64,000 nt of DNA from Candidatus Omnitrophota bacterium (GTDB taxonomy: Bacteria; Omnitrophota; Omnitrophia; Omnitrophales; JACROU01). A program made the position numbers and the translations under genes. Location of the stretch: the NCBI GenBank assembly GCA_029261035.1, contig JAJDCD010000012.1, forward strand, positions 70,958-134,957. Direction: 5' to 3'. Under the pieces are notes generated by a model that saw only the letters and a list, made by a program, of their open reading frames with translations, searched no databases and was not told where the DNA came from. Each line of letters opens with the position of its first letter. Positions within the stretch are counted from its first letter, which is position 1. Positions 29,147 through 48,203 of this stretch are shown piece by piece.

Positions 29147-30304
29147 TTACAACTTCTCGTTTAACACTTCTTTTTGTTTTACCAAACTTTCAAAAGCTTG
29201 TAACACATCCTCAACTTCAATCCATTCCATACATTGATGATGAATAAGAGGACATACTTTCTCCTCACATGGAGAACACTCAATATCTTTATAAACAACC
29301 TCGGACAGAGTTGCTTTGGGCTCCCATTCATCATGACGATTCGTTCCGCTAAAAATTGTCAAACAAGCCGCTCCGCAAGCACCAGCGACATGAGCTGGGC
29401 CAGAATCATTGCCTATAAAATAATCTGTAATACTCAACAAATCTGAAAGTTGCTTTAAATCTGTCCTGCCAATCAAATTAAATAAATGTTTCTCTTTCAA
29501 AAAATCTAAGGAAAGCGTCGCTTCATTTTCTTTACCAATCAAAACAATTTGATATTTATCTTGCTGCAATATAGAGTTTAATACCGTTGTGAATTTTTTA
29601 ACATCCCACTGTTTCGATGGATAGCCAGCACCTAAATGAGCAGCTACCAGAGGCCTACTGGTATCCCGCCCTAATTCTTTCATCTTTTCCAACATCTGCT
29701 CTTGTCGTTCGGCTTTAATTTCTAAAACAGGCTGTGTCACCGAAGTATTTCTATGGGTTAACGTTGACAGCAAAGCATTACACTTATCCACCTCATGAAC
29801 TCGCAATGGATGAATGGGGGCCGAATTCAACATAAAACCCCCTCCGCGAACACCGTAAGAGACTCTAAATTTAACTCCTGAAAGAAATAAGAGATAAAAA
29901 ATGGAGCGAATATCCCCTCTAAGATCAAACCCCAAATCGTACCCTTCTTTTCTGAGGTTGAGTATCAGAGAAAAAAGCTTTCTAACACTTAAGCGTTTCT
30001 TTTTTGACAACCAATGATTTTCAAGCCCAATAACCTGGTCAATTCTTGAGTCTTTCTCAAACAAAGGTGCAAATGCTTTATCGCACAGTAAATGAATTTC
30101 TGCTCCAGGGAATACATTCCTAATATTCGAATAAAAAGGAGCACTCAGAATAATGTCCCCCAGATGATCTAATCGGACAATCAATACTTTCCTAACTTCT
30201 TTTGGACATTTCTTTGATTTAAACAAGAAAAATAGACTGCCAATTAAATCAAGAAAAAAAACACTAACCCAGGTTTTCTTCTTCTTAAAAACATAATCAA
30301 ACAT
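29147..30304 (-). CDS. Family 9 glycosyltransferase (heptosyltransferase-like)
   Basis: A GT-B transferase of LPS-core type, 385 aa. After an N-terminal hydrophobic, basic segment it has VLIVRLDHLGDIILSAPFYS, the GDx2L loop of ADP-heptose:LPS heptosyltransferases. The donor domain contains YFIGNDSGPAHVAGACGAA and IFSGTNRHDEWEP. A Cys-rich stretch (CSPCEEKVCPLIHHQC) near the end is frequent in this family. Its start overlaps the CDP-alcohol gene by 8 bases, so the two are coupled. It supports an LPS-type outer membrane. Confidence 0.9.
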   Translation of the reverse strand: MFDYVFKKKKTWVSVFFLDLIGSLFFLFKSKKCPKEVRKVLIVRLDHLGDIILSAPFYSNIRNVFPGAEIHLLCDKAFAPLFEKDSRIDQVIGLENHWLSKKKRLSVRKLFSLILNLRKEGYDLGFDLRGDIRSIFYLLFLSGVKFRVSYGVRGGGFMLNSAPIHPLRVHEVDKCNALLSTLTHRNTSVTQPVLEIKAERQEQMLEKMKELGRDTSRPLVAAHLGAGYPSKQWDVKKFTTVLNSILQQDKYQIVLIGKENEATLSLDFLKEKHLFNLIGRTDLKQLSDLLSITDYFIGNDSGPAHVAGACGAACLTIFSGTNRHDEWEPKATLSEVVYKDIECSPCEEKVCPLIHHQCMEWIEVEDVLQAFESLVKQKEVLNEKL

Positions 30305-31127
30305 GAGGTTTCACTTTGTCTTTAAATTCTTGATCTAATGTTTTGTTTTTAATTAAATTAAAGCAACGAGCAGAAAATACAGTAGGAAGAACAATCGCAT
30401 AGAACAAAACAAACCATTCTTGAATTGCTAAAGATAGAAATTTCAATTCAACAAATAGACCTATCAAACTCGCAAAGGTCAAAACATTCATTAAGACATG
30501 GATGTCTGTCAATTTACACAAGAAGATAAAACAAATTTTAAATATATTTTTAGATTTTTCATTTGATTGAGAAGAACTCTCATCTTTAGTGTTAACAATA
30601 TCAATCGACCGCCACTGATTAAAATCGATCCAGTGAAAAAATGCTTTCCACTTCGCATCAAAAAACATAGAAACAAAAGCCATAAATAAGGCGCTAATAG
30701 CACCCAGAACCAACATGAACACATGTCCCTGACTGAAATAAGCTCCCACACCCAACCCGATAAAGATAACTGAATGCACCGTATAATGCGTTATATAATC
30801 AAAAAATACCCCCGTAACACCTGCTGTTTTTCTATATCGAGCAACCTGACCATCCACATGGTCTAATAAGTACCAAAATTGAAGTAGAAGAGCCCCAAGA
30901 AAAAGCCCCCAAGCAGTAGGGCAAGCAAAAGCGACTGCTGAGGCAATCCCTATTAATATAGAAAAAAACGTGACTTGATTCGCTGTCACCGAGGTATAAA
31001 GCAAGGGACGAGTTACATACAAAGCTAAATCTCGAATAATATGGCGGACATACCAGTTACCATACCCCTTTTCCTTATAATGAGGTTTCTGGCAAATAGC
31101 TCTCAATTCTTTAATCGACTCAACCAT
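30297..31127 (-). CDS. CDP-alcohol phosphatidyltransferase-like membrane protein
   Basis: About six membrane helices in 276 aa. The family motif is visible at about residues 100-124: DHVDGQVAR, eight residues, then GVFFDYITH. The usual pattern is DxxDGxxAR-x8-GxxxDxxxD; here the final catalytic Asp is His (DYITH). It therefore belongs to a divergent subgroup or has a changed mechanism; the substrate is unknown (CDP-glycerol, CDP-inositol or CDP-activated head groups are typical). The start at 31127 is chosen for AAGGAGAT six bases upstream; 17 further codons in frame are unlikely. It is the first gene of the polysaccharide operon. Confidence 0.82.
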   Translation of the reverse strand: MVESIKELRAICQKPHYKEKGYGNWYVRHIIRDLALYVTRPLLYTSVTANQVTFFSILIGIASAVAFACPTAWGLFLGALLLQFWYLLDHVDGQVARYRKTAGVTGVFFDYITHYTVHSVIFIGLGVGAYFSQGHVFMLVLGAISALFMAFVSMFFDAKWKAFFHWIDFNQWRSIDIVNTKDESSSQSNEKSKNIFKICFIFLCKLTDIHVLMNVLTFASLIGLFVELKFLSLAIQEWFVLFYAIVLPTVFSARCFNLIKNKTLDQEFKDKVKPHV

Positions 31128-31188
31128 GGCTATCTCCTTAAATTCATTCTTCTGTATAGACATTCTCTTGGTCTGCAAACAAACATGT

Positions 31189-31250: not shown

Positions 31251-34200
31251 TTAGGCAGCAATCTGGATTAAATACTGTGCCATTGCATTCTTGAAGAGGT
31301 GTTTTGTAAACTCTTCTAATCGCACTCTATATCGGCCAGATTCTTTGGAGAAATAACCTTCTCGGTTTTTTCCCTGATCTAAAAGAAGGGATAAAGATGC
31401 CATCAAAGCAAAAGGAGATCGCTCAAGAACAATGTGATTATCTGATCGATCTGCACTGCCTGAGTTCGAATAGTTAATGATTGGATAAAACGTTCTATTC
31501 TTCCCGAGACTATTTTTAAGTTGCTTCAACAGGGATTCAAGGTCTCTATCAACAAATTTAAATTGCTGATTATTTACATAATCCGCTTGAAGCACAACTT
31601 TCTCATCTTTAATAATTATAATTTGGCTATTAGCTAAACTTAAGAACTGTTGAACACCCACCACTTCTTCGACTTCAGAATTCCGAAGCAAATCATTCCA
31701 AACAGAAGCTTTTATAATAAGATATTTTTCTTCTTCTAACCTTAAAGCATCAAAAAATAAATTCTCTACCCTCGAACCTTTCTCTCCCAAACTGGATGCA
31801 CTTAAAGCCTCTTCAGAAAATACTGCTGTTAAGCCAGCGCCTAACAGTTGAAACACATCTTTAAGAGGGTCTTCATCACCAACGTTCTCTAATTTCCCCT
31901 TGATACTTTCTACATCAATCCCTTTAATCACTTCCTGAACTCGTTTAAGCACTTTTGATATTGAGAATTCCTCTTCTAAATCCATGTTTAAAATAGTATT
32001 TTCCAGAATTTTCAATTCGATCTTTTGTTTTAAACTCTCACCTTCATCTAACTGTTCTGATAACATTCTAATCTCATCTATAAATTGCTCTAATCCTTTC
32101 ACCTGTATTCTTTGATTGAGATAATCGTACAAATCTTCCATCGAAGAAGCCACTGTCGGAATACCTCCAAGTAAAATCGAAATTAAGTTGGTTTTCTGAT
32201 CCAAATCACTGATGACTACATTTTTAGGTTCTCTTTCATATAGGTTAGGGTTACCAAGAAAAGTTGCTATTTTTTCAAATATCTCAGCTAATTCATGGGA
32301 AGATTTAATGTTCTTAATGGAAATATCATAATAAGAAAGGATACGTTCACTGTGCAGATTACCTGTAAGAACTTCTTCTAATTTAACTCTAATATATTTA
32401 CTTACCCTATCGGATTCCTCTACTTCCACATATTCTTCTACAGCCTCATGCAATAACAGCTGTTCTTTTTCTTCTGCCGTTAAAAGCTCAAACTGAGTTT
32501 TTGTAATTAAGAGAGATCGGTATAAAGGATTGAAGGAAGTTCTGAGGGCAAGGATAGGGATTTGTTTTACAGGAGTTTGAGCTTCTTCGGAGTCGTAAAT
32601 ATCTAAAACAAAATAATTCTTCTCTCCATCATAATGCACCACTCTCTTCTTTCCATCATTCAAGTATATTCTTTCCTCAAAAGCTTCTTCAATCACATGC
32701 CAATGAGTCTTCTTTCCAATTGAAAATATTTGAGCTAATGGACTCATTGATAAAACAGTTTTTTCAATACGCCTACTCACTTTTGGCAGAACAACTGAAA
32801 CTATCGCATCTTTAATATCTTCACGAATAACTTCGGGTGCTTTTGCATACACAGAAACATTTAGGTTTCCAAAGATAGCAAACACAAAATACTCTAAAAT
32901 ATATTCTAACTTTTCACGCTCTAAATCGCTCAATTTTAACTTAGTTGTTTTTAACAGCTCCACAATATCCTCTGTTGAACGCAATCCTTTATTAGGATCT
33001 ACAAGCATTTTTTCGTCAGCAATTATTTTTAATGCCCTGTAAACCAAAGAAGTACGTTCTAGATAATTTAAAACAAAACGAATTTTATCTTCCGGTCGAA
33101 CAAAGTAAGTACCTCTAATCTCGGACTGATGTTTATCCAATGATTGCTTAAAATCCTCAAAAGTAATTTGATCTGGAACTAGCTCCGCTCTTTCTCTAAT
33201 TATAGGAAGGGCTCTGTATTTAGCCTTAACCATAATCTCCATGGTAGCTTTTTCACCCATAACTCTTTTACCTTTATCATTGATATAAGCTAGCGGATAA
33301 ACATGTTCTCGGTTTTTCTTTCCTACTGAAATCCCATTAAACTGAAGGTAACTATAATCATTACCATAAAACTCGCCCTGATCCCCAATCTTTAAAATCT
33401 CATTTACATGAACCGAAACTCCCGTTTCTCTTTCTATGTGTTCAACAAAATCTTCCAGAGAAGAAGCTTTGTCTGTTCCCAGAGGCATAAAATCAATAGA
33501 CCTTCTCCCACTAATCATAGCTGTAAAGGGAATTCCGTCCGTTACCAATGCAGCCTGTAATCGGGTTACATAAGGTAGCGCATTCCTTATATCCCGGAAA
33601 TGTAATCGAAAGTAATTCTTCCTTTTTTGTAAAAATGCATGGTTTTTTTCTGTCAGTTCTTTTTCTGATTTTGCTTGTTTAAGAACAATTCCCATTGTCT
33701 TCAAAACCCCTTTAACGTCCTGTTCGCCTCTTCTAAAACTATAATTCCCAGGCCACAATCTTTTTGGCTGACGAACTAAATTTCCGAAGCCATCCAATAT
33801 TTCTGCTCCATTATCTGCATAAACAATCAGATACCTAGCATCCTCATCATCCATCCCAGAAGTTCTCAATGCCTCGTACACCTTTTTCATTTCGGGCTTA
33901 CTCGCCAATCGAGCCGTTGCGAAAGAAACAAAAACCTTACCCTTTAGCAATTTAACTAAAAGTTCTATCGCTTTTTTTGACAATTTGCCATGCTCAAGCG
34001 TTAAAGTACCGTCAATATCCAGCATCGTTGCAACAAACTGGGTTTTTATTAATTCCTCAAATTCTTTTTTTTCTAACAGCTCAACCAAATCATAAATCAC
34101 TTTAGCTTTAGGGTATACTTTTCTCTCTTTATACAACCCTTTAAAATGAGGTTTTCCATCGAGAGATTTCCTTGCCGGTTCTATATGCATACGATAGAGA

Positions 34201-37200
34201 CTCCCTGCTCCATCATTGATAATATCCGCCTTATACAAAGCAAAAGCCATTCTAAAAAGGTCTCTTCGATTCAACTTGTCTTTCAATTCCTCCGAAGGCG
34301 TAAAAGCGTTATCTACTAAATCTTGAGGGGTTCTAGGTTTTGGGTTAGCGTGATGCTTAAACATGTCTCCAAATTGATCTGCAATTAAAATAGCCTCAAC
34401 AATTTTAATTTCATCGTTTGAAAACCCTAAGGAAGGTAGAAACTGATAAGCAAACTCAATTGATTTTTCTTCGTGAAGTAAATGTTGTTCATCATAAAGA
34501 GCTCTCTCAGTCTTTTTATCTGCTGTTATCGTGGCTTTCCCAACATCATGCATCAAAGCTGCCGCTCGAATTAAAGCTCTTGGATTCATACCTGGTATAT
34601 TAATGCTATTAAAACCATCTGTATCCACACCCTTAAGTACATTTTGAGTGTGTTGCTGAATATCAAGAGCCAATGGACGACCCCGACCATCCTTACCTCT
34701 TCTTCCCGCGGGTCTTTCCATCAAAGATAATAAAGGGGGTGGTAAATATTTAAAAATCTTTTTAATATTCAATCTAAAAGTAACATCATCGGTCTCTAAC
34801 ATTTTCTTTACTTGACGACTGCCTTCAACATCCGATAACTGGTAGATTTCTTTCACATAAGCTCGTGCTTCTTTCAGAGTTGTAATAATATTATTTGCTA
34901 CAGTTTCATCGCTTTTACTTTCAAAACCTGCAGAATAAACAATTTGCTTAATTTGCCTATCTGTTAATTTAGCTATTTTTTTCGCCATTCTTTTTTGAGC
35001 GGCTCTACCTAACTCCGTTTGAATAAATCCAAAAAACTCTCTCTCATAATCGGTAATTGCTACAGAGGCATAGGTCCCCGGCTTTGTTATATCGGTAGGG
35101 TCACCCATAAAATCTTTGATGGCTTGAATATTAAAACCCTCATTCTTTAAAGTCCCACGAGCCCGATAGTGAAAACTGCCTCCAAAGTCCCAAACGACAG
35201 GATTTCCATTAAGTCTTACAGAATTATCTATTCCGTTATTTTGTTTTGCTCTACCATCATAGTTCAGAGTAATCATATCAAACAAAAAACGTTCTAACAC
35301 TTCATTGCTTTTTCTCAGTTGCTCATCTGAACCTTCTGGAAACTTTTCTATAAGTCCCGGAATTCTTTTACTAGCAATGGCATATTCCGTACTCCCCGTT
35401 CCTGGGTGTGTCATTTTAATAATACGCACATCTGTGGGCACATTTACCCCTAACTCTTTTGCCATTCTCCAAGCAACATACTCTGTTCTTAATTGGTTAA
35501 TTTCAGGGTAAAATTTAACGTAGTACTCATCTCCATTCGATTTTCTTTTCATAAATCGAGCTTTGTTAGACCCAAAAGGTCCCCAAGGAGTAGTCCCCGT
35601 TAAATCCTCACTCAGCTCATGCCCCTGAATCAACATGTACATCCATGAAGTTATTTTAATTTTTCCGTCTTCATTGAAATAATCTGCCAATTTAGAAAGG
35701 AAGGTTGTTTCAGCTATATCCGAATTAGGAGTTTCTCTAAAAAAATGGCTTATTTCATCTTTTTTCGCTTGATCTAAAGCCACGCCATTCAATTCACCAC
35801 GACGAATAATTCGATTAAGAGCATCAACAAAAGAGTGATTATCTTCATTGCTATGCACACCTACCAGAATACCCATTCCATTTTCAAATGGATTTTGATT
35901 TCTGATTACCTCCTCATAAATCTCACTTTCATCAATTAATCGAAAATGATCCAGCTCAGCAGGAGACATTTTTCTTTCTCCCACCCCAAACCTACCACTG
36001 GATTTATCAAAAAAATCACTCGCTCTCAGAGATGTAATCACCTCTCCTCTATCATCCATTAACTGTTCTTTAATTGCTTTGAGTTGTTGAAAATGTTCTT
36101 GTTTTATAAATACAACCCCTAATTGACTTACAGGAATAAGTCCTTTAAAAGGGATGACAGGTAGCTTTCTATGCCCAAAATCAATACCTCTTGTAATTTT
36201 GGCTTCATTGTAATATTCGCTTGGAATCAAAAATAGAGCTCCGTTATAATCAATAAATTGCTGACTACCCGCCCCATAACCACCGCCACCTTCTCGGATC
36301 ACATAATCATATTCATTTGCTATATAACGGACATCTGATTTCCCCTGATTTCTTGCTTTACGATCCGTAATAGGAGGCTGTAAACCTCGAGTAATTCCAT
36401 CTAAAAAAGCTTCTGTTCCTGTAACAGAACGAATAAGCCATTGCCCTTTAGGAAAAACATCTTCTTCGTTCAACGTTCCTTCAGGGGCAGCTCCATGATA
36501 AAGCCTTCCTGTATTCAAACGTCTATAGATAGCCCTGTATTTTGTTTTTGGGTAGGAAAACAAGAGCTCTAAAATATTATTTCGATACTGTTTCCCAAAA
36601 ACAACTTCGATTAAAGATCTTTTGATTCTTCTCTTAGCTTTACTTCTATCATCTTCAATAACAGCTTCCAAAACTTTTTCTTTTTTTAATTGTTTCATAA
36701 TCCATTCAGCAACTTCAAATGCTTTTTCACTATCGGATATATTCTGAGAAGCTCTATAGCGAATTCCATCTATAGCACTTAATTTGATTTGCTCAGCAAC
36801 GTAACGATACAAGCTTTTATCAAAAACGTCATTAATCACTTTCATTACTTCGACCGTTGAAGAAATTTTTCCTAGTGCCTCTAAAGCTTTTTGACGCAAA
36901 TTCGCAGATATTTTTTCATCCTTAAAGATCTCAATAATAAACTTTTCTGAGCTTTCATTCGCCAAACGGCCATTCACTTCAATAAGAACACTCAACAGTT
37001 CCTCATTAATCGAAGACTCTATAAGAGCTTTACGCAATAAATTCCTCAAAGTTCTATCAGCCCCTGAAGGCCTTGCATTCGCTACTAAATTCAATATTTC
37101 TTTCTTTAGATCTACATTTGTTAATTGCTCATACATGTTAAGCAAAGTCAGCGCCCAATCGGGATGATTAACATGAACAATCCCTTGGACTAATTCAAAG

Positions 37201-40200
37201 AGATAAACCTCTCCTTTTTCCGTTAATTTTTCCGAGCCAAATCGCTCTAAAACATCTTTATAGGAACGTCGAATATTAGGTTCATGTAAATTGTCTCCAA
37301 AAACAATAGCACGTATCTCTGCCATAATAATTGGAGATGTTTTCGGGTTGTTATAAATTCTAAGCAAATCCACAGGCTTATACTTTGACCGTTCTTTTGC
37401 TATCGATCTTTTAACTTTGTTTCTCTCTCTAGAACGAAGTACTTTCAAAGTAGCTCCATTTAAATCCACATTATTGTCTCTCAATTCAATATAAGCCCCT
37501 AATCTCACTTTCCACTTTTCAGATTTTTCAACAATTTCTTCTAGGATAATGAAAGCATCCTTTGTTCCTATCTCCCCCAAAGCCTTTATGAATCGATGAG
37601 GAGAGAATTTACGAACACTTAATTTCCCTTTATCATCCCCAAAATACAGAATATTCTTTTCTACCATCTCCACTATCAGAGAAACAATCATAGATTGATT
37701 TTTATCTGTCCTTATATATTCAAATGCATCTAAAAATTGTGCTAATTCATTTTCTTGAAGTTTCTCAGGGCCTAAAACTGCCACCATTAAATTTAGCCTA
37801 TCACCTTCATTTGAAGCAAATCTTTCAACTTTCCTTTTTAAAGATCTTGAAGTCAAATATCTCCTTTCATAAACTTTGACAATTTTTTCTTGGTACGGTT
37901 TTAATACAGAAGATAAATGTTGCTGCTGGCCAAACTCAACTAACGTATTTAGAATCGCTGCTCCCAATTCATTATTCTTGTTTTGATCTAATTTAGACAA
38001 TAACCAATCAATGCTTGGCCCAATCTCATTTGCCCATTTTGGCTCTTTTAAAATATGAGACAACAACCTAACTGCCATAAGTTTGTCATCAACAAAACTT
38101 TCCTCCTGCGATAAATACTTATACAGAAAATTGATGTCTGATTTGTCTAATGTATATTGATTTGATCGAGGATTTTTGTATTCTGCCCATAGCGCATCAA
38201 TAAATTTCAAAGGGTCATACCCTGACTCTTCAATGAGGTAGGTAACATCCGAATCAATCATAAATAAACGTGTGTTATTTATTTCTTCTTCTACAGTAAA
38301 TTCGTACTCATCCCCTTCCTCATCTTCGCCAATCCACTCATAATCTCTTAAAGTAGGAACTGCTATCAAACGGACAAGAGTTGCAAAAGATTTATGTTTA
38401 TAGGGTATCTTTTTCAAAATTTCAACAGACTTTTCGGAACCTGAAAGCGCTAGACGAATTAACTCCATTTGAGCAAAAGAATACTTCCCCGAATTCACTT
38501 TTCCAATTCGAGTCAATTGAGCTTCAAGAACAGCAACAATCTCAGCCTTAAATACATCTCTTATTTCTTTAGGTAATACCTTATCCACATCTTCACCACT
38601 TAAAACGCGAGTTGAAGGTTCTCGCATTATTTTCTTCTTTAAGGAGGTAACAACAAAAGGAATACGACCCGAAGAGGCTTCAAAGTATTTAATAACATCA
38701 CTGTACGCATCATACGAGACATCAATAGAAGTAATTGACTCTAATGCTTTAAGTACAAAAGCATCTTTTTTGAGGATTTTAGCCGTAAGATAAGCAACAG
38801 CCGCAAGGTCTCCAGTCTTAGCTAAAGTTATAATGCGTTCTAATACGATACCTTTATACCGTTCTTGATCCTCTGGAGAAATTCTTATAATTTCTTGAAG
38901 ACTCATAACTCTGATTTCAGCTACAATCAAATCATGAAAATCTCTTTTCATTCCTGGAGTCATCCTAAGTAACATATCATGGTTCATACGACTCTGAAGT
39001 AATTTTTCAACTTCATTAATTATATATTCTGTTGGCTGAGAGTAACTTTTATACAATTCAATCAGTTGATCATAGGTGTAATATCCAACATCAAAAGTCT
39101 TATCCTTGAATAAATCTTCAACACGTATATCTCCATGCAACCACATCTGAAGCAAACTCTGATAAACAAAATTTTTCACAGCAACATCATTTGGAGATTC
39201 GTTAATAACCTCTAAATATTTTTCTATAATTTCATCAAAATACCGAGTTAATATTCCAATAGGAAGCTTTTGTATTTGCTCCAGACTCCATTCATTTTTA
39301 AGGCGGTACTTAAAGGAAGGCTCAACCACTTTCAATTCACTCGGGTCTAATATGCCAAATTCGTTCAATTCTGCTGTTGTTGACTTATCCTTAATCAACC
39401 CACGTATATATGCATCTGGCGACTTAGTAGAGTAAATAAAACGAGCTGAATTTTTGACATTTTCTTCTCTGAATAAAATTTCCTTTAAAGAGTATCGTTT
39501 CCTGTAGTTTTGAGCAGAAAGATATTTATAAACAATTTCCCTTTGAAAAAGCAGGTCATAGAATACCAACTTAGAATTAAAGCGAAAACCAGTCAATATA
39601 TTCACAACGATCAATCCAAGCCTCTGAAAAGGTAATAATGCCAAGCTGTAAATAAAAGCAATAACCCCAACACTTATATTAATAATAGGTGTTGTCCATG
39701 GAACAGAAACACGATTAACTGTTATTATCTCAAAAAATACCCTTATAAACTCTAATGGAAATGCAATTAATACATACAGCAATGCAATAGGCGCCATAAA
39801 TACAACTCTGAAAAAATCAGAAATTGAGAAAATAACATCTAACCCGGCAGGAACCTCTTGATTCTCTTTTAATATTTCAAAATAATCTTTAAGTGGCGTT
39901 AAACGATGTGCCGTCTTCCATAAATTCCTAGCTTCTTCAGAACCAATCAAAAAGGCCCTACTTTCTTCTAATTTATTAATCAAAACAGAAGGTTCATCCA
40001 ACACCTTCAGTAAATCAGAATAAACTTTAATCAACGTATCTGAATAGCTTTCTTCTGTCTGCAAACGTTCAATTAATAGTGCAAATAAAAAATTCAAGAA
40101 TTTTTCTTTCTTTTCTTTTGTCAGTTCTATTAATGTGTAGTAATTCCAATCTTTTAAATGATCTTTTAATTCATAATAGAAAACTTCCACCACCTCCATA

Positions 40201-43200
40201 GGAAGGTCATTCACTTCACTTAGACTCAAATTCCCAACTCTTTTTTTAACCATATTGCTTAAATGCCCATGACTACGTCTATTCCAATACTCAAAACTCT
40301 CTTCTGCAGGCAAAAACTTAAGATTATAAGGAAGTCCTATTTTTTTAGCTGCATTTCCAAAAACAAAAAAACTAGGTCGTGTTGGGTAATTAAGAATAAA
40401 CACATCCACATTCCACTCTTTCATTTTCTTAAAGACATGTCCTTTAAATAACAATCTATCAACCCCATACAAAGCAGAAAGAATAAATGTGATTCCTCCA
40501 AAAACAATAAATGCATCTGCAACAGCTAAACTCATCAGATTCCATGAAGCCCCAGCCATAAGAAGGTAGCTTTTAACCAGACCCAATCCAAAATAAAACA
40601 TTGCTCCATAACTAAGGATTGACAAAGAGGTAAGAAAACCTGCCATTTTAATGACTCCCCAAACCCGGACATCCCACCCTTCTCCACCACTGTCTTTTCC
40701 AAAAAACAATTGAGTGATTGCTAAGGCAGTTACAGAATACGGAACTCTAAACACACTAATAAGCATAAGTTTTGCAAGACTAAAAGCACTCCAAATTAAA
40801 TTGAATATACTCCCTAATAAAATCTCAAAAAAACCTGCTATCAGAGGAAGTAGAATAATGAGAACCTTCAATCCCCCCAACATAAAAGTAAAAGGATATA
40901 ACATAAACTTCATACTATTTGTCCATACAGATTCAAAAAAAGAGGTTTTTTGTTTTTGAAATATGATTTTTAGATCTTCTAGACTTATCTCGTCACTGAA
41001 ATTCCACTGAACTAAATCCATCAATTCAGTTATTCCGCGTCCATCCTCTGCTTCTGCCCAAATCCTCAACAAAGTCCTCTGGGTGTCTATATCCATAAAA
41101 TTAATAAGGTCACTCAACCCTATATTATTATGTTCAGATATTAAAATAGATGGGATCTTAGACTCAACGCCCTGTTTCTCCCAAAAATTTATTAATTGAG
41201 TGATTTTCCGGTGATATAAATACCCACGAACCAAAGCTTCTTCATGTTCTTTCTTTAATTCAGGGGACAATTTGTCTGATTCTCTAACTTCAATAGTCTT
41301 ATATACAGCTTCAGCTACAGCTGATTTAAATACCTTTCTTGATTTCTTATTAAGACCATTTAGATTCACTGCTAAATTTGTTTCAGAAATACGTTTAATT
41401 AAAGCCTTTTGAATTTGCTTACTTTGATATGGTGACAATACGTCTCTCCACCCTTTAAACCAAGAAAAATTCTTATTAAATAGACGTTCGACAAAGAAAT
41501 ATTTCAGAATATTTCCAGGAACTTCAGAAGAAAATATCAAATCCTCAACAACATCATTCCTATAATTATGATCAGAGAAAACTTTCTCTAAAACAGCCGT
41601 CACAACCAAAATAACCGCTATCAAAGCAATAAAGCCAATTGGATTCGCTGTCAAAAGGGCTATATTAATTTTTCCATTTAATAGACTGGCAAGCAAAAGC
41701 CACTCTGATACAAAGACAATCAAAGAAAGAAGATCAGAAAAACCCAACTCAGGACCTCTATCAATTAATTTATTTACGGTATAACCTGGGCTTAATGCTG
41801 CTAAAAAAATGGTATATAATAAAATAAACCCTAAAGATACAAAGGCAGGGACTAAATCGACAACAAACCCTAAAACACCTCTCACAATACGAATAATTTC
41901 TAAAGGTAGTTTCAAAATAAAAAACAGCATTTTCTTAAGAAATGAGACCTGTTTAGACAAATAGAGCTTTTCTATTTCCTGCAAACTCAAAATGTTCTCA
42001 AAACTCCAACTTTTTTTATCCACCAAACGGGAAATAGGTCTTTTCAAGCCTTCTTTCTTCATTAATTCATACACAACTCTAAGAGGCTCTACATCGCCTC
42101 CATTAACTGCTATTGTAAATTCTGATATTAAGTCACTCGATACTCTAAAAGAACCCCATAAACCTATCTTTACATCATTCTCATACGCTATCACTTGGGT
42201 TACTTTTGATTCCGCTCCTCTTTCTAACCAAAACCGCAATAATTCCACTCTTGAGTCATGAGCTATATGCCCTCCCTGAGTTTCACTAAGTTGAATTAAC
42301 CTTCTCGTTACCTCTTCTTCAAATTCTCTCTTTACATCTTTATTCAAGTTTAGTATTTGCCCTAAAGTGAAGTCCAACCATATTCTGCTAGCTATTTTCG
42401 ACCTCATATCTTTTCGCACAGCACCAGGTAGGTCATTCATATCTGAAGCGCTCAACCTAGAATTCTCTATCTTAGAAGAAATGGCATTCCTATATATGTC
42501 TGTTTTATAGGGAGAAACAAAATTTAAATACTTCAAAGGAAGAAATAACGATTTAAATGATGTTGGAACTTTATAGAACCCTTCGTAAAAAAATGGCTTT
42601 TCAATGAGTTTGCTCAAATTGTTAGATATACCACTTTGAAAATAAGGTTCATCTAGAAATTTTAAAAATAAATACATACCGAACATTACGAATAAAACTA
42701 GCAAAGAACTGCCAACAAGAAAAGACAATGACCCTAAAGCAATTTTTGCCCAGAAAGCCAATTGAACCCCAAACAGTGTTCCTAATGTAATTTTTGCTCC
42801 AACCACCCCCCCAACAATCATTTGAATCACCCCGATAATAAAAGCGGGTGCTTTAAGATCTTCATAGCTCGTTCTGTCGTCATTAAAATAGAATCTTACA
42901 AATGCAGGAACTGCACTCATAAAAACAAAAATACCTACAATTAAGGCTGGTATTAATTTAAGAATTAAAATAGGAATTAGAATACTGTGATACAAAAAAG
43001 AGGAAAATAAATAAAACAAACTCGTAGAAACCAGAAAGACGGACTGTATAATTTTTCTAGGTAACCCTGCTCGATACTTCCCATAGATAATTGCCAAATC
43101 TTTAAGAGAAAAAAGATCCAACGAATATCCATTGCTCGAGATTAGCTTAGTAATTCTCTGAAAACGCCCTTCTAATTTAATCACTTCTAAAAAGGCTTTT

Positions 43201-46200
43201 TGAGGATAGAACGTCATAAGACTATTTACATTAGGGAGTTTAATCTGAGAACTCCCCCATGTCGTGGGTCTTAACTTAGAATCCCCCATCAAATCCGTAA
43301 CTCGATCAAAATACTTTTTATTTTTCCATAATTCAAAAATAAAGTATTCCGCATAATTTTTCTCATCAGTTCTTGAATTATTCATATGGGCTCTAGAAAT
43401 TAAAGTGGCCATAATTGCTTCGAGATATAAATCAATAACATGCTCTTTTAATAGAAGAAATTCACTAACAGAGATCTGCTTAAGAGATTCTTCGACATCA
43501 TCCTTATATTTTCTCAACACCTCTGGGCTTAGATCATTAAATTGAGATGCGTAGTTAAACCCACGAATATGACTCCCTAGCATGGTATCAATATATGTTG
43601 AACGATAAAAACCAACAGCATAGACCAAACCTGGCAAAGGAAGAAATCGATCTTTCCATGAGTCTTTTACTTTAGGAAAAGTATTCAACATAAATTCTTC
43701 TGAAGAAATATATTTAATAAATTTAAAGAACTTCCCTGAGAATTGTTTCTCATCAAGACTCATCAAGAGCTCAGAGATGATCAATTGACTCAAGAAAAAC
43801 ACGATAAAACTTAGTGTGATAGCTCCAATAATCCCAAATAAAATTGAAAGCCCCCAAGTAGCTAAAGAAGTCAAATTGAGTAAAGCAAAATACGGGTGGG
43901 CCAAAATAACGCTTCCTCCTAAGCTTAGAAGGGCTGGCAAACCATAGAAAGGTCCGTAATCCTTATTGGAAGTTAAATGCTTTGGAGTATTCTCAAAAAA
44001 GAATCCTCTAAATGCAATTGATGGCGAAAAAACAAATGCGACAAATAGATGTTGTACAATAAGAGGTATCATTTTCACTAAAACAAAAAATGTTGTAATA
44101 AGAAAAGAACTAATTCCCCAAATTAAAAAGGATGCATTCGTTAATAGTGATAAAGGTAAAGTCAGAATATATTTCCACCAAGGATTTTTGTTTTTCTCAG
44201 CAAGAGACTCCCATTCTTTTAAAGATATTTTGTCTAATCTCCAAGGCGAACTTCTATTCATAGTTTTTATATCAATCAATCGACTCATTCTTTTCTGCGA
44301 ACCTTCTCTCATCCACAATTCTAGTAAAAATTTTTGAGCATACTCTCTAGGCTTATTTCTAATACTCCAAGTTGGAATATTATTACTTGAATGATCTGCA
44401 ATGATATCCGTAGTAACAGAATCAGGCCCCCTTCCTTTCCATAGGGTAAACAACTCATCTCGAGCAACATCTCTTGGGTTTGGATGAGTTGTGCGATGAT
44501 CGTCATGTGTTGCTATATGAATCAAACGTAGAGTAATTTCTTTCTCAAACTTTATTTTAAATTGCTCTGGCAAAATATTGACGTGAACAGCAGGTATTTT
44601 CTCTATCGCCTTAAGTACTTCTCGTCGCTGAACCCTATCGCCTTTTAAATAATTTTGAAGAGCCGGTACTAATAGACGGTATCGATCATTAAACTGATAA
44701 GCCACTTCTTTATTGCTCAGCACTATTTCTCTTAGCTCTAATTCCTGCTTAACATCATAGACATACTCTTCCGCTTCTGCTGTTTCAGTCCAATTTATAA
44801 CATTTTTCTCAAAAGCTTTAAACGTATCTACTTGAGGGACAAACCCTAAATTCTCAAAGAAATTGAACAGCAATTCTTTAAACTCTGCTTCTTCTGAAAT
44901 ATCTTCTATTTTCTCACCTTTTAAATACGCCGTTAAGAATCTTCCAATTTCATGTGTCAAATCTCGATGTTCAGGATGAAGTTTTAAATAATCTTGAATT
45001 TCTTTATCTGAATCAACTTCTTCCAGAAAATGTCCATGCTCTTCAAATAGTGTCTGGATCCAATCTTCAAAGTTAAGTCCATCTGCAATAACAATAGTTC
45101 CATCTTCAACACCTTCTGTTGTCAGGTAAAACCCCTGAACATCTCCTTCTGGGAATAATTCTGAAAGCAAATCTCGAGATACACCAACTTTGACTTTTTT
45201 AATTTTTTTAGAATGTAATACAGCAACTGGAAACATCCCATAAAATTGTTGAAAAACAGATGTGAGTAATGCCTCATTCCTTGCAGTTCTTACGGAACTA
45301 ACTTCCATCGAATAGTTACTTCTTAACACCTTATTCAATTCTTCAAGATCTTCCGCGCCTGTATCCAATACCTTACTTGGAAGTTGAAGGACTTTGTTAA
45401 TCAAACGATTCACCCAACGCGAATCAACTTTATCTAACCACGTGCCAGTTTCGCTCAACTCTTCAGTCGGAATTTCTAAAAGTGCTAATTTAGACAAAGC
45501 CCAATAAAACTCTTCCTGAAAATCTGGCCTTGCCAATTTTAAGCGAGGAACAACGGTTGAACTAGAATAAGCCCCATTCAGCCAAACCTTTAACATTCCA
45601 TCGACATTGAATTCATTCATATCTTCCAAGTGTGCTAGTATCGATTTTCGATGTTTTTTTCCTTTTAAAAGCTTTCTTAATTGATATCCTTCAACTTCTT
45701 TCTTAATAGAACTCCATTGATATATAGCTGTGCTTTCCTTTTCATATTCTGTTAAATTTTGGAGGATTTGAAAACCTCTTTCATTTATTATTTTGAGAAC
45801 ATTTTTATCAAGCAACCTTCCCACAAGGTCTTCTTCATCACGCCTCTGTTTTTTGAGCAAAGTTCTTAAGAGCTCCAGCTCTTCTTGCTCGCCAGAGCTA
45901 TTCTGATATGCAGCCAAAAACAAAGTGAAAATTTTAAACTCTGGAGATTCTTGTGTAAGATAAAAGTTCAATTCTCTTGAATGCAAAAAGAAACTTCTGT
46001 GTTTTTTCCATAATTCATTAAATTGACTCCTATCTGCCTTACGACAAATAGTTATTAACTTCTTTAAGCGTTCATATTTTTCAGACTCAATCCCTGCAGC
46101 CAATCTATTAACATCCTTGATGAGATGTGCAGAAACAAGCTTATCTTTGGAATTAAAATTAAGTTTACTCTCTAAATATTCTCCTGATTTTAAAGGTGTG

Positions 46201-47801
46201 TGAGACTGTTCTTTCTGAAGTAATTTTTCTGTGTTTTTTTGAAGATTTTTTGATTCAGAAAGTGAATCTTTTGTTATTGAAGTAAGATCAGAGTGAAACT
46301 CATTTTCAATTCTTTTATGGTACAACTGATAGTTGTGTTGAGATTTAAACTTAGGACTAATTGCTACATAATTCATATCCTTTAGCCCTGCTTGCTTTTG
46401 GATGCCTGGTTGATGAAAACCACCTGTAATCAAAATAGCTTCTTTTATCCCTTGGTCTTTTAATTGCTTTTCTAAGTTAATAACTATAGATTCGTCTCTC
46501 TGCATAGCAATTAAATAAAACTGATCTAACAAGTCCCAATCGATCCAACTCTGAGCCTCTTTTAAGAACTCCAAGCTATTGAATTGCAATTGAATAAAAG
46601 TGTTTTTAAACTGAAAGTATTCCTCTGAACTAAGCTTAAGATGAGTGCTTTTTTCAAGAAGTTGAATCCATTGATGCCTTTGATGCCAATCTTTATCCTT
46701 ATTTGAAGAACTTAATTGAAACCAAATCATTTGATATATTTTCTTTAAATCAGAATCAAACGAAACAAATTGTTGAGTTTGAGTTAAATTAAGAAACTCA
46801 GAATAAAGCTGCCACTGAACATATTTTTCTTTTTTAAGACCCACGAAAACTGCCCATAATTGTAACCACTCAAAAAACGAGCTTTTTGAATCTTGTTTTT
46901 TAAGCCGTATTTGAACTAATTCCTTTTCGTATCGACTTAATACTTCGGGCTGATCTTCCAATTCAATCTCAATTGCATTCAAGATTTCATTCAATTCCTC
47001 TTCTAAACGATTAAAATCCAGGGCTTCTACATAAGGAATAATTTTTTCTAAAGAATCCATTCCCCCTTCTTTTAATTTAGATTTTAATTGATCAGGACGA
47101 AGCTTAAATACATCTTTAAAAGAATTGGCTAAATTTTGAACTATTTCAAAATCAGCAACCGTCAATTCTTTCCCTTGATACTCTTTCCAAAAATTCCATA
47201 ACTTTGAATTTGATTCCCGCCTAAAAAGAGCTTTAACATTTTTCTTAAGGACCTTCATCCGTTCAGAGTAATGCTGATTCTTCTCTAATATTTCTTTTAA
47301 AAGGGATAAGTTTTTTTCGTATAACTGAGAAGACTCAATACCATGAAGTTTTAAGCTAGGATTTGATAGATAAGCAGCTTCACCACCCGTAAGATATCCA
47401 TTTTCAATATACCATTCGATTACAGGAGATTCTTTTTGCTCTGTTTGTTGAATTGCTTTCTGGAGCCAAGGAGTTTTAATTTCTCCTTCATAACCCTCAA
47501 CAAAAATATGTTTTATTTTACGCTGTTGAGCTACATCCAACACAAGCTCTTTAATGCTACGCTGAGCCCCAGGCTCAGAATGAGCATCTAAAATGTGTAT
47601 GATTTTAGGACTATTTGAAGATTGAGAGGTTGAAGTAACAATTTTCCCTATACTCGGACGCACCCACAATGGTTGGGCCTGCGGATTTACTTTTAACGCC
47701 ACCTCATAGGCATAAACTGCATTCTGAGACAAATCAGTCAAAAGAAAGAAGATGAGCGTTATAAAAGCAATAATTTTAAGGAAATTACGACATTTCACCA
47801 T
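31251..47801 (-). CDS. Giant 5,516-aa multidomain membrane protein with TIKI-like, kinase-like, HD and HAD domains
   Basis: Function unknown. A signal peptide (about 1-31, ending NAVYA) is followed by a TIKI/EreA/ChaN-like domain (about 65-480). Its motifs are LDAHSEPGAQ (H74), FVEGYEG (E102), LHGIES and ITGGFHQPG. EEHGH near 922 resembles a broken zincin motif. Residues about 1200-2750 hold five hydrophobic blocks with some 20 helices in all. The first four are each preceded by a repeated helical signature (EGxxxRIxxLID...W...SLxE near 1165, 1544, 1917 and 2254). HEAT-like helices follow (about 2750-3750). Then come a kinase-like domain (about 4070-4260, WDFGGSF), an HD domain (LMHDVGK near 4420, KAD) and a HAD domain (LDIDGTLT near 4594, GDQGEFYGND near 4805). 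The C-terminus is IQIAA. Start ATG 47801, AAAGGAT upstream. Domain names are from motifs by eye. Confidence 0.85.
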   Translation of the reverse strand: MVKCRNFLKIIAFITLIFFLLTDLSQNAVYAYEVALKVNPQAQPLWVRPSIGKIVTSTSQSSNSPKIIHILDAHSEPGAQRSIKELVLDVAQQRKIKHIFVEGYEGEIKTPWLQKAIQQTEQKESPVIEWYIENGYLTGGEAAYLSNPSLKLHGIESSQLYEKNLSLLKEILEKNQHYSERMKVLKKNVKALFRRESNSKLWNFWKEYQGKELTVADFEIVQNLANSFKDVFKLRPDQLKSKLKEGGMDSLEKIIPYVEALDFNRLEEELNEILNAIEIELEDQPEVLSRYEKELVQIRLKKQDSKSSFFEWLQLWAVFVGLKKEKYVQWQLYSEFLNLTQTQQFVSFDSDLKKIYQMIWFQLSSSNKDKDWHQRHQWIQLLEKSTHLKLSSEEYFQFKNTFIQLQFNSLEFLKEAQSWIDWDLLDQFYLIAMQRDESIVINLEKQLKDQGIKEAILITGGFHQPGIQKQAGLKDMNYVAISPKFKSQHNYQLYHKRIENEFHSDLTSITKDSLSESKNLQKNTEKLLQKEQSHTPLKSGEYLESKLNFNSKDKLVSAHLIKDVNRLAAGIESEKYERLKKLITICRKADRSQFNELWKKHRSFFLHSRELNFYLTQESPEFKIFTLFLAAYQNSSGEQEELELLRTLLKKQRRDEEDLVGRLLDKNVLKIINERGFQILQNLTEYEKESTAIYQWSSIKKEVEGYQLRKLLKGKKHRKSILAHLEDMNEFNVDGMLKVWLNGAYSSSTVVPRLKLARPDFQEEFYWALSKLALLEIPTEELSETGTWLDKVDSRWVNRLINKVLQLPSKVLDTGAEDLEELNKVLRSNYSMEVSSVRTARNEALLTSVFQQFYGMFPVAVLHSKKIKKVKVGVSRDLLSELFPEGDVQGFYLTTEGVEDGTIVIADGLNFEDWIQTLFEEHGHFLEEVDSDKEIQDYLKLHPEHRDLTHEIGRFLTAYLKGEKIEDISEEAEFKELLFNFFENLGFVPQVDTFKAFEKNVINWTETAEAEEYVYDVKQELELREIVLSNKEVAYQFNDRYRLLVPALQNYLKGDRVQRREVLKAIEKIPAVHVNILPEQFKIKFEKEITLRLIHIATHDDHRTTHPNPRDVARDELFTLWKGRGPDSVTTDIIADHSSNNIPTWSIRNKPREYAQKFLLELWMREGSQKRMSRLIDIKTMNRSSPWRLDKISLKEWESLAEKNKNPWWKYILTLPLSLLTNASFLIWGISSFLITTFFVLVKMIPLIVQHLFVAFVFSPSIAFRGFFFENTPKHLTSNKDYGPFYGLPALLSLGGSVILAHPYFALLNLTSLATWGLSILFGIIGAITLSFIVFFLSQLIISELLMSLDEKQFSGKFFKFIKYISSEEFMLNTFPKVKDSWKDRFLPLPGLVYAVGFYRSTYIDTMLGSHIRGFNYASQFNDLSPEVLRKYKDDVEESLKQISVSEFLLLKEHVIDLYLEAIMATLISRAHMNNSRTDEKNYAEYFIFELWKNKKYFDRVTDLMGDSKLRPTTWGSSQIKLPNVNSLMTFYPQKAFLEVIKLEGRFQRITKLISSNGYSLDLFSLKDLAIIYGKYRAGLPRKIIQSVFLVSTSLFYLFSSFLYHSILIPILILKLIPALIVGIFVFMSAVPAFVRFYFNDDRTSYEDLKAPAFIIGVIQMIVGGVVGAKITLGTLFGVQLAFWAKIALGSLSFLVGSSLLVLFVMFGMYLFLKFLDEPYFQSGISNNLSKLIEKPFFYEGFYKVPTSFKSLFLPLKYLNFVSPYKTDIYRNAISSKIENSRLSASDMNDLPGAVRKDMRSKIASRIWLDFTLGQILNLNKDVKREFEEEVTRRLIQLSETQGGHIAHDSRVELLRFWLERGAESKVTQVIAYENDVKIGLWGSFRVSSDLISEFTIAVNGGDVEPLRVVYELMKKEGLKRPISRLVDKKSWSFENILSLQEIEKLYLSKQVSFLKKMLFFILKLPLEIIRIVRGVLGFVVDLVPAFVSLGFILLYTIFLAALSPGYTVNKLIDRGPELGFSDLLSLIVFVSEWLLLASLLNGKINIALLTANPIGFIALIAVILVVTAVLEKVFSDHNYRNDVVEDLIFSSEVPGNILKYFFVERLFNKNFSWFKGWRDVLSPYQSKQIQKALIKRISETNLAVNLNGLNKKSRKVFKSAVAEAVYKTIEVRESDKLSPELKKEHEEALVRGYLYHRKITQLINFWEKQGVESKIPSILISEHNNIGLSDLINFMDIDTQRTLLRIWAEAEDGRGITELMDLVQWNFSDEISLEDLKIIFQKQKTSFFESVWTNSMKFMLYPFTFMLGGLKVLIILLPLIAGFFEILLGSIFNLIWSAFSLAKLMLISVFRVPYSVTALAITQLFFGKDSGGEGWDVRVWGVIKMAGFLTSLSILSYGAMFYFGLGLVKSYLLMAGASWNLMSLAVADAFIVFGGITFILSALYGVDRLLFKGHVFKKMKEWNVDVFILNYPTRPSFFVFGNAAKKIGLPYNLKFLPAEESFEYWNRRSHGHLSNMVKKRVGNLSLSEVNDLPMEVVEVFYYELKDHLKDWNYYTLIELTKEKKEKFLNFLFALLIERLQTEESYSDTLIKVYSDLLKVLDEPSVLINKLEESRAFLIGSEEARNLWKTAHRLTPLKDYFEILKENQEVPAGLDVIFSISDFFRVVFMAPIALLYVLIAFPLEFIRVFFEIITVNRVSVPWTTPIINISVGVIAFIYSLALLPFQRLGLIVVNILTGFRFNSKLVFYDLLFQREIVYKYLSAQNYRKRYSLKEILFREENVKNSARFIYSTKSPDAYIRGLIKDKSTTAELNEFGILDPSELKVVEPSFKYRLKNEWSLEQIQKLPIGILTRYFDEIIEKYLEVINESPNDVAVKNFVYQSLLQMWLHGDIRVEDLFKDKTFDVGYYTYDQLIELYKSYSQPTEYIINEVEKLLQSRMNHDMLLRMTPGMKRDFHDLIVAEIRVMSLQEIIRISPEDQERYKGIVLERIITLAKTGDLAAVAYLTAKILKKDAFVLKALESITSIDVSYDAYSDVIKYFEASSGRIPFVVTSLKKKIMREPSTRVLSGEDVDKVLPKEIRDVFKAEIVAVLEAQLTRIGKVNSGKYSFAQMELIRLALSGSEKSVEILKKIPYKHKSFATLVRLIAVPTLRDYEWIGEDEEGDEYEFTVEEEINNTRLFMIDSDVTYLIEESGYDPLKFIDALWAEYKNPRSNQYTLDKSDINFLYKYLSQEESFVDDKLMAVRLLSHILKEPKWANEIGPSIDWLLSKLDQNKNNELGAAILNTLVEFGQQQHLSSVLKPYQEKIVKVYERRYLTSRSLKRKVERFASNEGDRLNLMVAVLGPEKLQENELAQFLDAFEYIRTDKNQSMIVSLIVEMVEKNILYFGDDKGKLSVRKFSPHRFIKALGEIGTKDAFIILEEIVEKSEKWKVRLGAYIELRDNNVDLNGATLKVLRSRERNKVKRSIAKERSKYKPVDLLRIYNNPKTSPIIMAEIRAIVFGDNLHEPNIRRSYKDVLERFGSEKLTEKGEVYLFELVQGIVHVNHPDWALTLLNMYEQLTNVDLKKEILNLVANARPSGADRTLRNLLRKALIESSINEELLSVLIEVNGRLANESSEKFIIEIFKDEKISANLRQKALEALGKISSTVEVMKVINDVFDKSLYRYVAEQIKLSAIDGIRYRASQNISDSEKAFEVAEWIMKQLKKEKVLEAVIEDDRSKAKRRIKRSLIEVVFGKQYRNNILELLFSYPKTKYRAIYRRLNTGRLYHGAAPEGTLNEEDVFPKGQWLIRSVTGTEAFLDGITRGLQPPITDRKARNQGKSDVRYIANEYDYVIREGGGGYGAGSQQFIDYNGALFLIPSEYYNEAKITRGIDFGHRKLPVIPFKGLIPVSQLGVVFIKQEHFQQLKAIKEQLMDDRGEVITSLRASDFFDKSSGRFGVGERKMSPAELDHFRLIDESEIYEEVIRNQNPFENGMGILVGVHSNEDNHSFVDALNRIIRRGELNGVALDQAKKDEISHFFRETPNSDIAETTFLSKLADYFNEDGKIKITSWMYMLIQGHELSEDLTGTTPWGPFGSNKARFMKRKSNGDEYYVKFYPEINQLRTEYVAWRMAKELGVNVPTDVRIIKMTHPGTGSTEYAIASKRIPGLIEKFPEGSDEQLRKSNEVLERFLFDMITLNYDGRAKQNNGIDNSVRLNGNPVVWDFGGSFHYRARGTLKNEGFNIQAIKDFMGDPTDITKPGTYASVAITDYEREFFGFIQTELGRAAQKRMAKKIAKLTDRQIKQIVYSAGFESKSDETVANNIITTLKEARAYVKEIYQLSDVEGSRQVKKMLETDDVTFRLNIKKIFKYLPPPLLSLMERPAGRRGKDGRGRPLALDIQQHTQNVLKGVDTDGFNSINIPGMNPRALIRAAALMHDVGKATITADKKTERALYDEQHLLHEEKSIEFAYQFLPSLGFSNDEIKIVEAILIADQFGDMFKHHANPKPRTPQDLVDNAFTPSEELKDKLNRRDLFRMAFALYKADIINDGAGSLYRMHIEPARKSLDGKPHFKGLYKERKVYPKAKVIYDLVELLEKKEFEELIKTQFVATMLDIDGTLTLEHGKLSKKAIELLVKLLKGKVFVSFATARLASKPEMKKVYEALRTSGMDDEDARYLIVYADNGAEILDGFGNLVRQPKRLWPGNYSFRRGEQDVKGVLKTMGIVLKQAKSEKELTEKNHAFLQKRKNYFRLHFRDIRNALPYVTRLQAALVTDGIPFTAMISGRRSIDFMPLGTDKASSLEDFVEHIERETGVSVHVNEILKIGDQGEFYGNDYSYLQFNGISVGKKNREHVYPLAYINDKGKRVMGEKATMEIMVKAKYRALPIIRERAELVPDQITFEDFKQSLDKHQSEIRGTYFVRPEDKIRFVLNYLERTSLVYRALKIIADEKMLVDPNKGLRSTEDIVELLKTTKLKLSDLEREKLEYILEYFVFAIFGNLNVSVYAKAPEVIREDIKDAIVSVVLPKVSRRIEKTVLSMSPLAQIFSIGKKTHWHVIEEAFEERIYLNDGKKRVVHYDGEKNYFVLDIYDSEEAQTPVKQIPILALRTSFNPLYRSLLITKTQFELLTAEEKEQLLLHEAVEEYVEVEESDRVSKYIRVKLEEVLTGNLHSERILSYYDISIKNIKSSHELAEIFEKIATFLGNPNLYEREPKNVVISDLDQKTNLISILLGGIPTVASSMEDLYDYLNQRIQVKGLEQFIDEIRMLSEQLDEGESLKQKIELKILENTILNMDLEEEFSISKVLKRVQEVIKGIDVESIKGKLENVGDEDPLKDVFQLLGAGLTAVFSEEALSASSLGEKGSRVENLFFDALRLEEEKYLIIKASVWNDLLRNSEVEEVVGVQQFLSLANSQIIIIKDEKVVLQADYVNNQQFKFVDRDLESLLKQLKNSLGKNRTFYPIINYSNSGSADRSDNHIVLERSPFALMASLSLLLDQGKNREGYFSKESGRYRVRLEEFTKHLFKNAMAQYLIQIAA

Positions 47802-48175: not shown

Positions 48176-48203
48176 AGAAAAAGAGAGCTTATACTCTTTT
48201 TCT
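48176..48203 (-). terminator. Weak terminator-like hairpin at the end of the 1,495-aa gene
   Basis: On the minus strand AGAAAAAGAG pairs with CTCTTTTTCT across an 8-base loop (plus-strand arms 48176-48185 and 48194-48203). The stem is A/T-rich and overlaps the stop codon, with the T-run inside the stem. It may terminate weakly or bidirectionally. Confidence 0.3.

Follow-up and report, generated by a model that had tools for sequence, protein, structure and literature searches.

A kinase-HD-HAD enzyme cassette in a giant Omnitrophota protein whose family shares both ends

Here we describe a giant protein of an uncultured Candidatus Omnitrophota bacterium, P0001, in which three enzyme domains follow one another along a single chain. 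It is encoded in the window, by which we mean the whole stretch of 64,000 nucleotides that was analysed (GenBank assembly GCA_029261035.1, contig JAJDCD010000012.1, positions 70,958 to 134,957), as a single minus-strand open reading frame (ORF) of 5516 codons without an internal stop at window positions 31251-47801; the first base of residue n is found at 47801-3(n-1). A kinase-like domain comes first, an HD domain second and a HAD-IIB domain third, and catalytic residues are present in them; taken whole, the cassette measures 841 residues. This confirms the series of domains that an earlier note had read from the letters of the same DNA, and the three folds were named correctly. We regard the domains and their conservation as firmly established, and likewise the family to which P0001 belongs and, in the order Omnitrophales, the two ends that its members share. 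We consider it about an even call that P0001 is an exported multi-enzyme payload protein, most likely acting on targets outside the cell that produces it.

The case for the kinase-like domain, which spans residues 4063-4320 (34842-35615), draws on a PHROG match, a profile, an AlphaFold2 model and an alignment. No Pfam family, HipA included, matched it at E<=1, and residues 4083-4228 matched PHROG 3162, a family of unknown function, at E 6.7e-6. The model shows a kinase fold (predicted local distance difference test score, pLDDT, 80.8; predicted template modelling score, pTM, 0.84), which is what the earlier note had expected of a domain-level structure prediction for this part. With the model as query, Foldseek ranked CtkA first (E 1.1e-4, template modelling score about 0.48) and an ATM entry second (1.2e-4). 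Re-alignment of the model by VIA gave CtkA a Z score of 15.7 (210 residues, 3.4 Å, 19% identity), in a tie with CotH at 14.9, followed at lower Z by PI4KII (12.8), HipA (12.4), actin-fragmin kinase (11.9), MavQ (11.6), FAM20 (11.2) and LepB (10.6). The likeness in plan to HipA and the PI kinases that had been proposed for this domain is borne out, with PI4KII and HipA among the top structures after CtkA and CotH. A profile of the kinase alignment, run against the sequences of the PDB, returned CtkA at E 3.5e-4 as the only row below 0.05; the next row stood at 0.089.

The putative catalytic residues of P0001 are K4096, E4107, D4182, N4193 and D4205, with WDFGGSF starting at residue 4204. We aligned the domain with 15 relatives, taken from three Omnitrophota loci and 12 of 16 viral loci; four near-duplicate viral loci were omitted, and four of the 16 rows are still near-copies. 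Lys4096, Glu4107, Asp4182, Asp4205, Gly4207 and Lys4219 are kept in all 16 sequences, and Asn4193 in 12, the remaining four (a near-identical group) carrying an Asn one column earlier. Among the six Omnitrophota kinase sequences the Lys, the Glu and both Asp are invariant, and two read DNG instead of DFG. The relatives are 20-27% identical and the catalytic residues are still conserved. The earlier description of the catalytic loop therefore stands as regards the fold and the placing of the quoted motifs, except that the catalytic Asn is, by the alignment, N4193 and lies outside D-G-R itself. By its modelled fold, and by the ATP-binding Lys, the catalytic Asp and Asn and the metal-binding Asp, the predicted kinase belongs to the CtkA/HipA/CotH/PI4K-like clan, a clan that includes exported or delivered kinases; the FAM20 proteins, for instance, are kinases of the secretory pathway. 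The idea that the cytoplasm is the normal workplace of such domains thus holds only in part, since exported or delivered kinases such as CtkA are among the nearest folds.

The HD domain occupies about residues 4380-4530 (34212-34664). PF01966 matches its residues 4408-4491 with 25.4 bits, against a gathering cut-off of 22, and this score, together with an H..HD..D pattern (H4384, H4418-D4419, H4443 and D4526), indicates membership of the HD superfamily; the motifs QHTQNV, LMHDVGK and KAD lie where they had been placed. The GYP motif is absent from the whole P0001 protein, so that by this mark the domain is not an HD-GYP domain, the type with which the earlier note had wanted it compared. Cas3 was tried as an identity and rejected: the PADLOC/NCBIfam Cas3-HD matches are weak (E 1.2e-4 and 0.0028) and fall under the cut-off where one exists. 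The HAD domain spans residues 4594-4826 (33324-34022) and matches PF08282 with 36.7 bits (cut-off 20.9) and the HAD-SF-IIB model TIGR01484 over that stretch with 42.5 bits, narrowly over its cut-off of 41.8. All four motifs read earlier are there (D4595, D4597, T4629, K4778, D4807, N4814 and D4815), and on the scores and the residues of motifs I to IV we assign the domain to the predicted HAD-IIB hydrolases. A comparison with Cof-type HAD proteins, suggested at the same time, found little to build on: TIGR00099 scored 32.1 bits, far under its cut-off of 137. Searching HD and HAD with phmmer against PDB sequences gave a lone row at chance level (E 0.4). The cassette was indeed found at 33380-35600, the range first given for it, although the HAD domain extends about 55 bases below the lower end. 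In the sequences aligned, the first Asp of the HAD domain, its Lys and both Asp of motif IV are kept in six of six, and for HD the HD pair, the second His and the final Asp in three of three, the first His being kept in two of three as aligned. Loss of catalytic residues across homologues, which had been named as a reason to give up these assignments, did not occur.

Relatives of the cassette exist elsewhere in the phylum. A direct scan of the genome contigs with the window cassette gave 71 stretches that fit the pattern, none of which was confirmed as a relative, and a cassette search of 58 relatives yielded two genomes besides our own, G014 and G039. In G014, which belongs to another family of the same order, a giant (L004, in a 3609-residue frame) carries kinase, HD and HAD in the identical order, with 22% identity to the P0001 cassette over 623 columns (E 1e-23); the G039 contig stops just past the kinase. 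With the own genome counted, a three-row cassette profile matched 5 of the order's 47 genomes and 10 of the 384 sampled across the phylum; a kinase profile matched 7 of the 384, where the open frames concerned measure 1153 to 9814 residues. Arrangements differ among these loci. L011 (in G025) has the kinase and then an HD domain (27.0 bits against the cut-off of 22); G163 has kinase and HAD far apart within one frame of 9814 residues; in L012 a different kinase-like domain, APH (69.8 bits), comes after HAD; and L020 has HAD followed by a domain that looks kinase-like by eye and matches TCAD9 below threshold. In L018 and L019 the same kinase stands behind a different N-terminal module that these two share (52% identity). 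As a separate observation, L004 contains a Fic domain at residues of about 1120-1166 (PF02661, 32.3 bits, cut-off 24), and the XopAC-type/Fic matches from NCBIfam in this protein correspond to that domain and have no relation to the cassette.

Relatives of the kinase also occur in phage proteins. A viral search with the three closer kinase rows (the six-row alignment being too diverse for scanning) found relatives encoded on 16 viral contigs. Four of the 16 proteins were scanned with Pfam and the remaining twelve inspected by eye; partner domains passed the cut-off in three of the four, namely MuF and a DRAT ADP-ribosyltransferase in L039, MuF in L029 and Nudix in L041, and the fourth scanned protein, L027, had no domain over cut-off. 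In the annotated phage set, the L027 kinase has 19 matching records, of which four are labelled ADP-ribosyltransferase, and the window cassette has eight, by way of its kinase part (best E 4e-6). The kinase domain of Pseudomonas phage Jeremy sits in a 1213-residue protein with an ADP-ribosyltransferase exoenzyme domain above cut-off, and that of Actinomycetia phage DSL-LC01 in a 3289-residue protein, three genes before a capsid maturation protease.

At its N-terminus, P0001 is a member of a large family. Its first 540 residues align with P0002, its neighbour in the window, and with L005 and L012 (E 5e-15 to 3e-9), and this module (residues 8-547, 46161-47780, from alignment and profile) keeps the motifs DAH, VEG and GG[FY]H, which we take to be marks of the ChaN/TraB/TIKI superfamily; we call it ChaN/TIKI-like on these three motifs and on a Pfam hit to ChaN/Tiki, below threshold, in another part of L012. 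A three-row profile of the module finds matches in all 47 genomes of the order, with 1 to 42 matches each, counts in which some of the candidates were scored and a match is not the same as a gene. In the own genome, where every candidate was scored, 58 matches fall in 45 distinct open frames of 503 to 16199 residues (median 2546), which together take up 15.5% (420 kb) of an assembly of 2.70 Mb in 26 contigs; these frames run from stop to stop, and some are cut at contig ends. In a relative the module also occurs within an open frame of 35113 residues (G018:C37:183558-184961).

The most novel element of the family is a shared C-terminal tag. The 3' ends of 40 of the 45 frames were fetched (left out were the 16199-residue frame, three other frames and P0001, which is in the window), and two ran off the contig, leaving 38 ends to be read. 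Ala-Ala terminates 28 of the 38, where composition predicts 0.5%, and Ala 36 of them. Over 37 ends, P0001 included, the pattern is Leu or Ile at -22, -19, -18 and -15, Ala at -9, Gln or Arg at -8 and -7, Ile, Leu or Val at -5, and Ala or Ser at -2. By comparison, a hand-picked set of 29 other window ORFs, each a likely gene, contains no Ala-Ala end and a single Ala end. For other genomes we took 20 of the order, with one frame each whose predicted end lay inside its contig, and read 16 ends, of which 11 finish in Ala, five of these 11 in Ala-Ala. The tag regions of the window lie at 31251-31328 in P0001, where the last 25 residues (31254-31328, from the comparison of C-termini) close with Ile-Ala-Ala, and at 48203-48280 in P0002; P0003, L004 and L011 too end in Ala-Ala.

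What lies between the ends varies. Seven paralogues were read whole, and in five of them Pfam found nothing at E<=0.01; L115 carries Nudix and DUF218, and L119 the C-terminal domain of GAPDH, all above cut-off. The latter is a divergent GAPDH at frame residues of about 1100-1505 that keeps its catalytic SCTTN and shares 27% identity, over 201 residues, with the GAPDH encoded in the window; 16 other housekeeping proteins of the window had no match to a giant. Another glycolytic enzyme was noticed by eye in L020 (G381, a 4207-residue frame), as a degenerate stretch near the end that resembles glucose-6-phosphate isomerase.

On which side of the membrane would such enzymes act? The earlier note's signal peptide was recovered by hydropathy as a signal-peptide-like start at residues 1-31 (47709-47801) with a hydrophobic core at 7-25, and by eye a putative cleavage site follows VYA. 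Beyond it, Kyte-Doolittle hydropathy gives 16 candidate helices at residues 1212-2724 (39630-44168), in clusters of 4, 4, 3, 3 and 2. The earlier proposal that an even or odd helix count would fix the side does not carry far, as topology was judged from hydropathy alone and parity cannot be read from it; the comparison of relatives and paralogues is the better evidence. Five of the seven whole-read paralogues have an N-terminal segment only, one has none above threshold and one has nine segments, and all seven end in Ala. L018 and L019, which carry the same kinase, both begin like a protein with a signal peptide and lack a multi-helix block; L018 shows one extra weak segment. Since relatives with the same kinase and six of the seven paralogues lack the membrane block, export is favoured, and by analogy with them the P0001 cassette is likely to be exported; if the tag works on the exported side, the cassette would be exported as well.

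We favour the reading of P0001 as an exported payload protein, and it can be spelled out as follows. The signal peptide and the ChaN/TIKI-like N-terminus would carry the chain over the inner membrane, and the short C-terminal helix with its Ala-Ala would mark it for a common step, be it anchoring, secretion or processing. The variable middle would consist of enzymes, in this case a kinase of the CtkA/HipA/CotH clan, an HD domain of phosphohydrolase type and a HAD-IIB domain of phosphatase type, whose catalytic activity and substrates we infer. A kinase requires ATP, so the most plausible place for it to work would be inside a recipient cell, whether prey, host or neighbour, and there HD and HAD may dephosphorylate nucleotides or other small phosphate-bearing compounds. 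That the chain is delivered into another cell is a hypothesis favoured by the clan, by the phage link and by the need for ATP. A broader proposal, which we put forward only tentatively, is that the family forms an order-wide Omnitrophota secretion class taking up about 15% of the genome. Its members would combine a signal peptide and ChaN/TIKI-like N-terminus with exchangeable payloads and an amphipathic C-terminal Ala-Ala helix that some sorting or processing machinery would recognise, kinase-HD-HAD being a payload that rewrites phosphate signalling and nucleotide pools in other cells, with a kinase shared with phage-borne effectors.

Several observations weigh against this interpretation. 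The tag is missing from two of the 38 own-genome ends and from five of the 16 elsewhere, three of these five containing assembly gaps and two (L094 and L098) simply failing to fit. The paralogue payloads are not obviously toxin-like, and GAPDH in L119, by keeping SCTTN, suggests captured enzymes that were kept active, which speaks against a pure toxin reading. The cassette is rare, with a single copy in its own genome and the kinase in 7 of 384 genomes. The 16 candidate helices mean that the C-terminal part could face the cytoplasm. In L004, Pfam does not match the HD domain and the HAD matches are all sub-threshold, the second Asp of HAD motif I is kept in five of six sequences and lost in L012, and no immunity gene was identified.

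The alternative that survives best, though we think it rather unlikely, is that the giants are exported coat or adhesive scaffolds, in which the enzyme domains are captured gene pieces, retained because of their folds or to do housekeeping outside the cell, for example the scavenging of nutrients and nucleotides. Adhesion and coat roles have been proposed for Omnitrophota giants in the accessible parts of PMC10066038; GAPDH and Nudix occur in two paralogues, and the HEAT repeats and membrane block of P0001 are scaffold-like. However, folds kept merely as building blocks should lose their catalytic residues, and the residues are kept in the kinase (16 of 16), in HAD, in HD (three of four metal positions in three of three) and, as SCTTN, in GAPDH, so that conservation weighs against the scaffold. 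Less probable again is an odd number of helices that would leave the C-terminal half in the cytoplasm of the producer, the cassette then serving a membrane sensor as its intracellular unit for signalling or for the turnover of nucleotides. ATP and nucleotides are, as is generally known, cytoplasmic, the HD and HAD families mostly work there, and the last clusters of 3, 3 and 2 helices keep parity open. On the other hand, relatives carry the same kinase without a membrane block, and the tag also ends paralogues with a signal-peptide-like segment only (5/7) or with none (1/7), from which tag and preceding part are probably exported. It is very improbable that the kinase is a captured, phage-derived remnant without present function: it has relatives in phage proteins and is rare and scattered in the phylum, but its catalytic residues are conserved at 20-27% identity and the kinase-HD-HAD order recurs in a distant giant.

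Known systems resemble P0001, read as an exported payload protein, in parts. CtkA of Helicobacter pylori (PDB 3akj, 3akk and 3akl) has the closest fold and is the sole PDB sequence match below 0.05; according to the available portion of PMC5536186, this Ser/Thr kinase requires a type IV secretion system to be active in host cells. Whereas CtkA is a small stand-alone protein, the P0001 kinase is embedded in a chain of 5516 residues with a signal-peptide-like start, a membrane block, HD and HAD. HipA/HipT toxins, PI4KII, CotH and FAM20 belong, by the model, to the same clan; unlike HipA/HipT, P0001 has no Pfam HipA match at E<=1, and no antitoxin-type neighbour was noticed. Polymorphic toxin systems are alike in combining a shared N-terminal trafficking module (here in 45 frames) and a shared end with variable enzymes between; as to differences, no immunity gene was identified here, and the payload is often not toxin-like. 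Phage MuF-type and polyvalent proteins carry the same kinase domain with MuF, ADP-ribosyltransferase or Nudix and put several enzymes on one chain, whereas P0001 is a chromosomal giant with a signal-peptide-like start and a cellular neighbourhood that does not fit delivery by a virion. That polyvalent phage proteins can combine multiple enzyme domains, and that they include a kinase group, has been published (PMC5512222, in part); that group is described there as having lost the C-terminal subdomain, whose helices the P0001 kinase model retains.

Giant Omnitrophota proteins with enzymes have themselves been published (PMC10066038, PMC11573180, PMC12057145 and PMC12419801, each consulted in part). 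In the available text of PMC10066038 little is said to be understood of what giant ORFs do, adhesion and predation being offered as guesses, and PMC12419801, to a similar extent, describes gigantic proteins that contain enzymes and peptidases and suggests their use against prey. P0001 is like these giants in phylum, size, membrane helices and mixed domains, but the accessible parts of PMC10066038 and PMC12419801 make no mention of kinase-HD-HAD, of a shared ChaN/TIKI-like N-terminus or of a C-terminal Ala-Ala tag. The published literature searched, preprints apart, did not yield the cassette, the order-wide N-terminal module or the tag. With conserved residues of a delivered-kinase clan, a phage link and shared ends, the function of giants becomes open to test: one can ask what machinery recognises the tag, where the chain finally resides and what its enzymes modify. 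The two shared ends offer a handle with which the whole family could be found in other genomes, and the cassette suggests that giants carry enzymes meant for the outside of the cell or for other cells.

The rest of P0001 and its surroundings can be described briefly. HEAT repeats precede the cassette, with the best stretch at residues 3597-3668 (36798-37013; PF13646, 39.2 bits, cut-off 27.7). Residues 3745-4060 (35622-36569), just upstream of the kinase, have no assigned fold; an ADP-ribosyltransferase was a by-eye idea that we dropped, as Pfam was empty and AlphaFold2 gave a pLDDT of only 32.2 (from two sequences). About 690 residues follow the HAD domain. P0002, of 1513 residues, lies at 48203-52744, also on the minus strand, with the N-terminal module and Ala-Ala end of the family. 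The surroundings, read from their ORFs, are cellular genes for lipid metabolism, glycolysis and sugar transfer, and the next gene downstream (30297-31178) resembles by eye a CDP-alcohol phosphatidyltransferase. The five helix clusters (39630-44168) are spaced by roughly 340-380 residues, in the manner of an internal repeat, and are too diverged for self-BLAST at 1e-4.

Two further observations concern other family members and relatives. The motif RSE[VMLI]R occurs 15 times in L012 (G043) and 6 times in L005 (G039), where shuffling leads one to expect 0.02 and 0.04, and it is absent from 18 other frames checked, P0001 included; an origin as a DNA repeat was rejected because the codons vary. It apparently falls at domain borders and might be a processing or recognition site. 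Lastly, internal signal-peptide-like or Tat-like segments are seen by eye in L005 (near residue 470), L012 (near 1797) and L018 (360-378, also in hydropathy), as if separate exported proteins had become joined.

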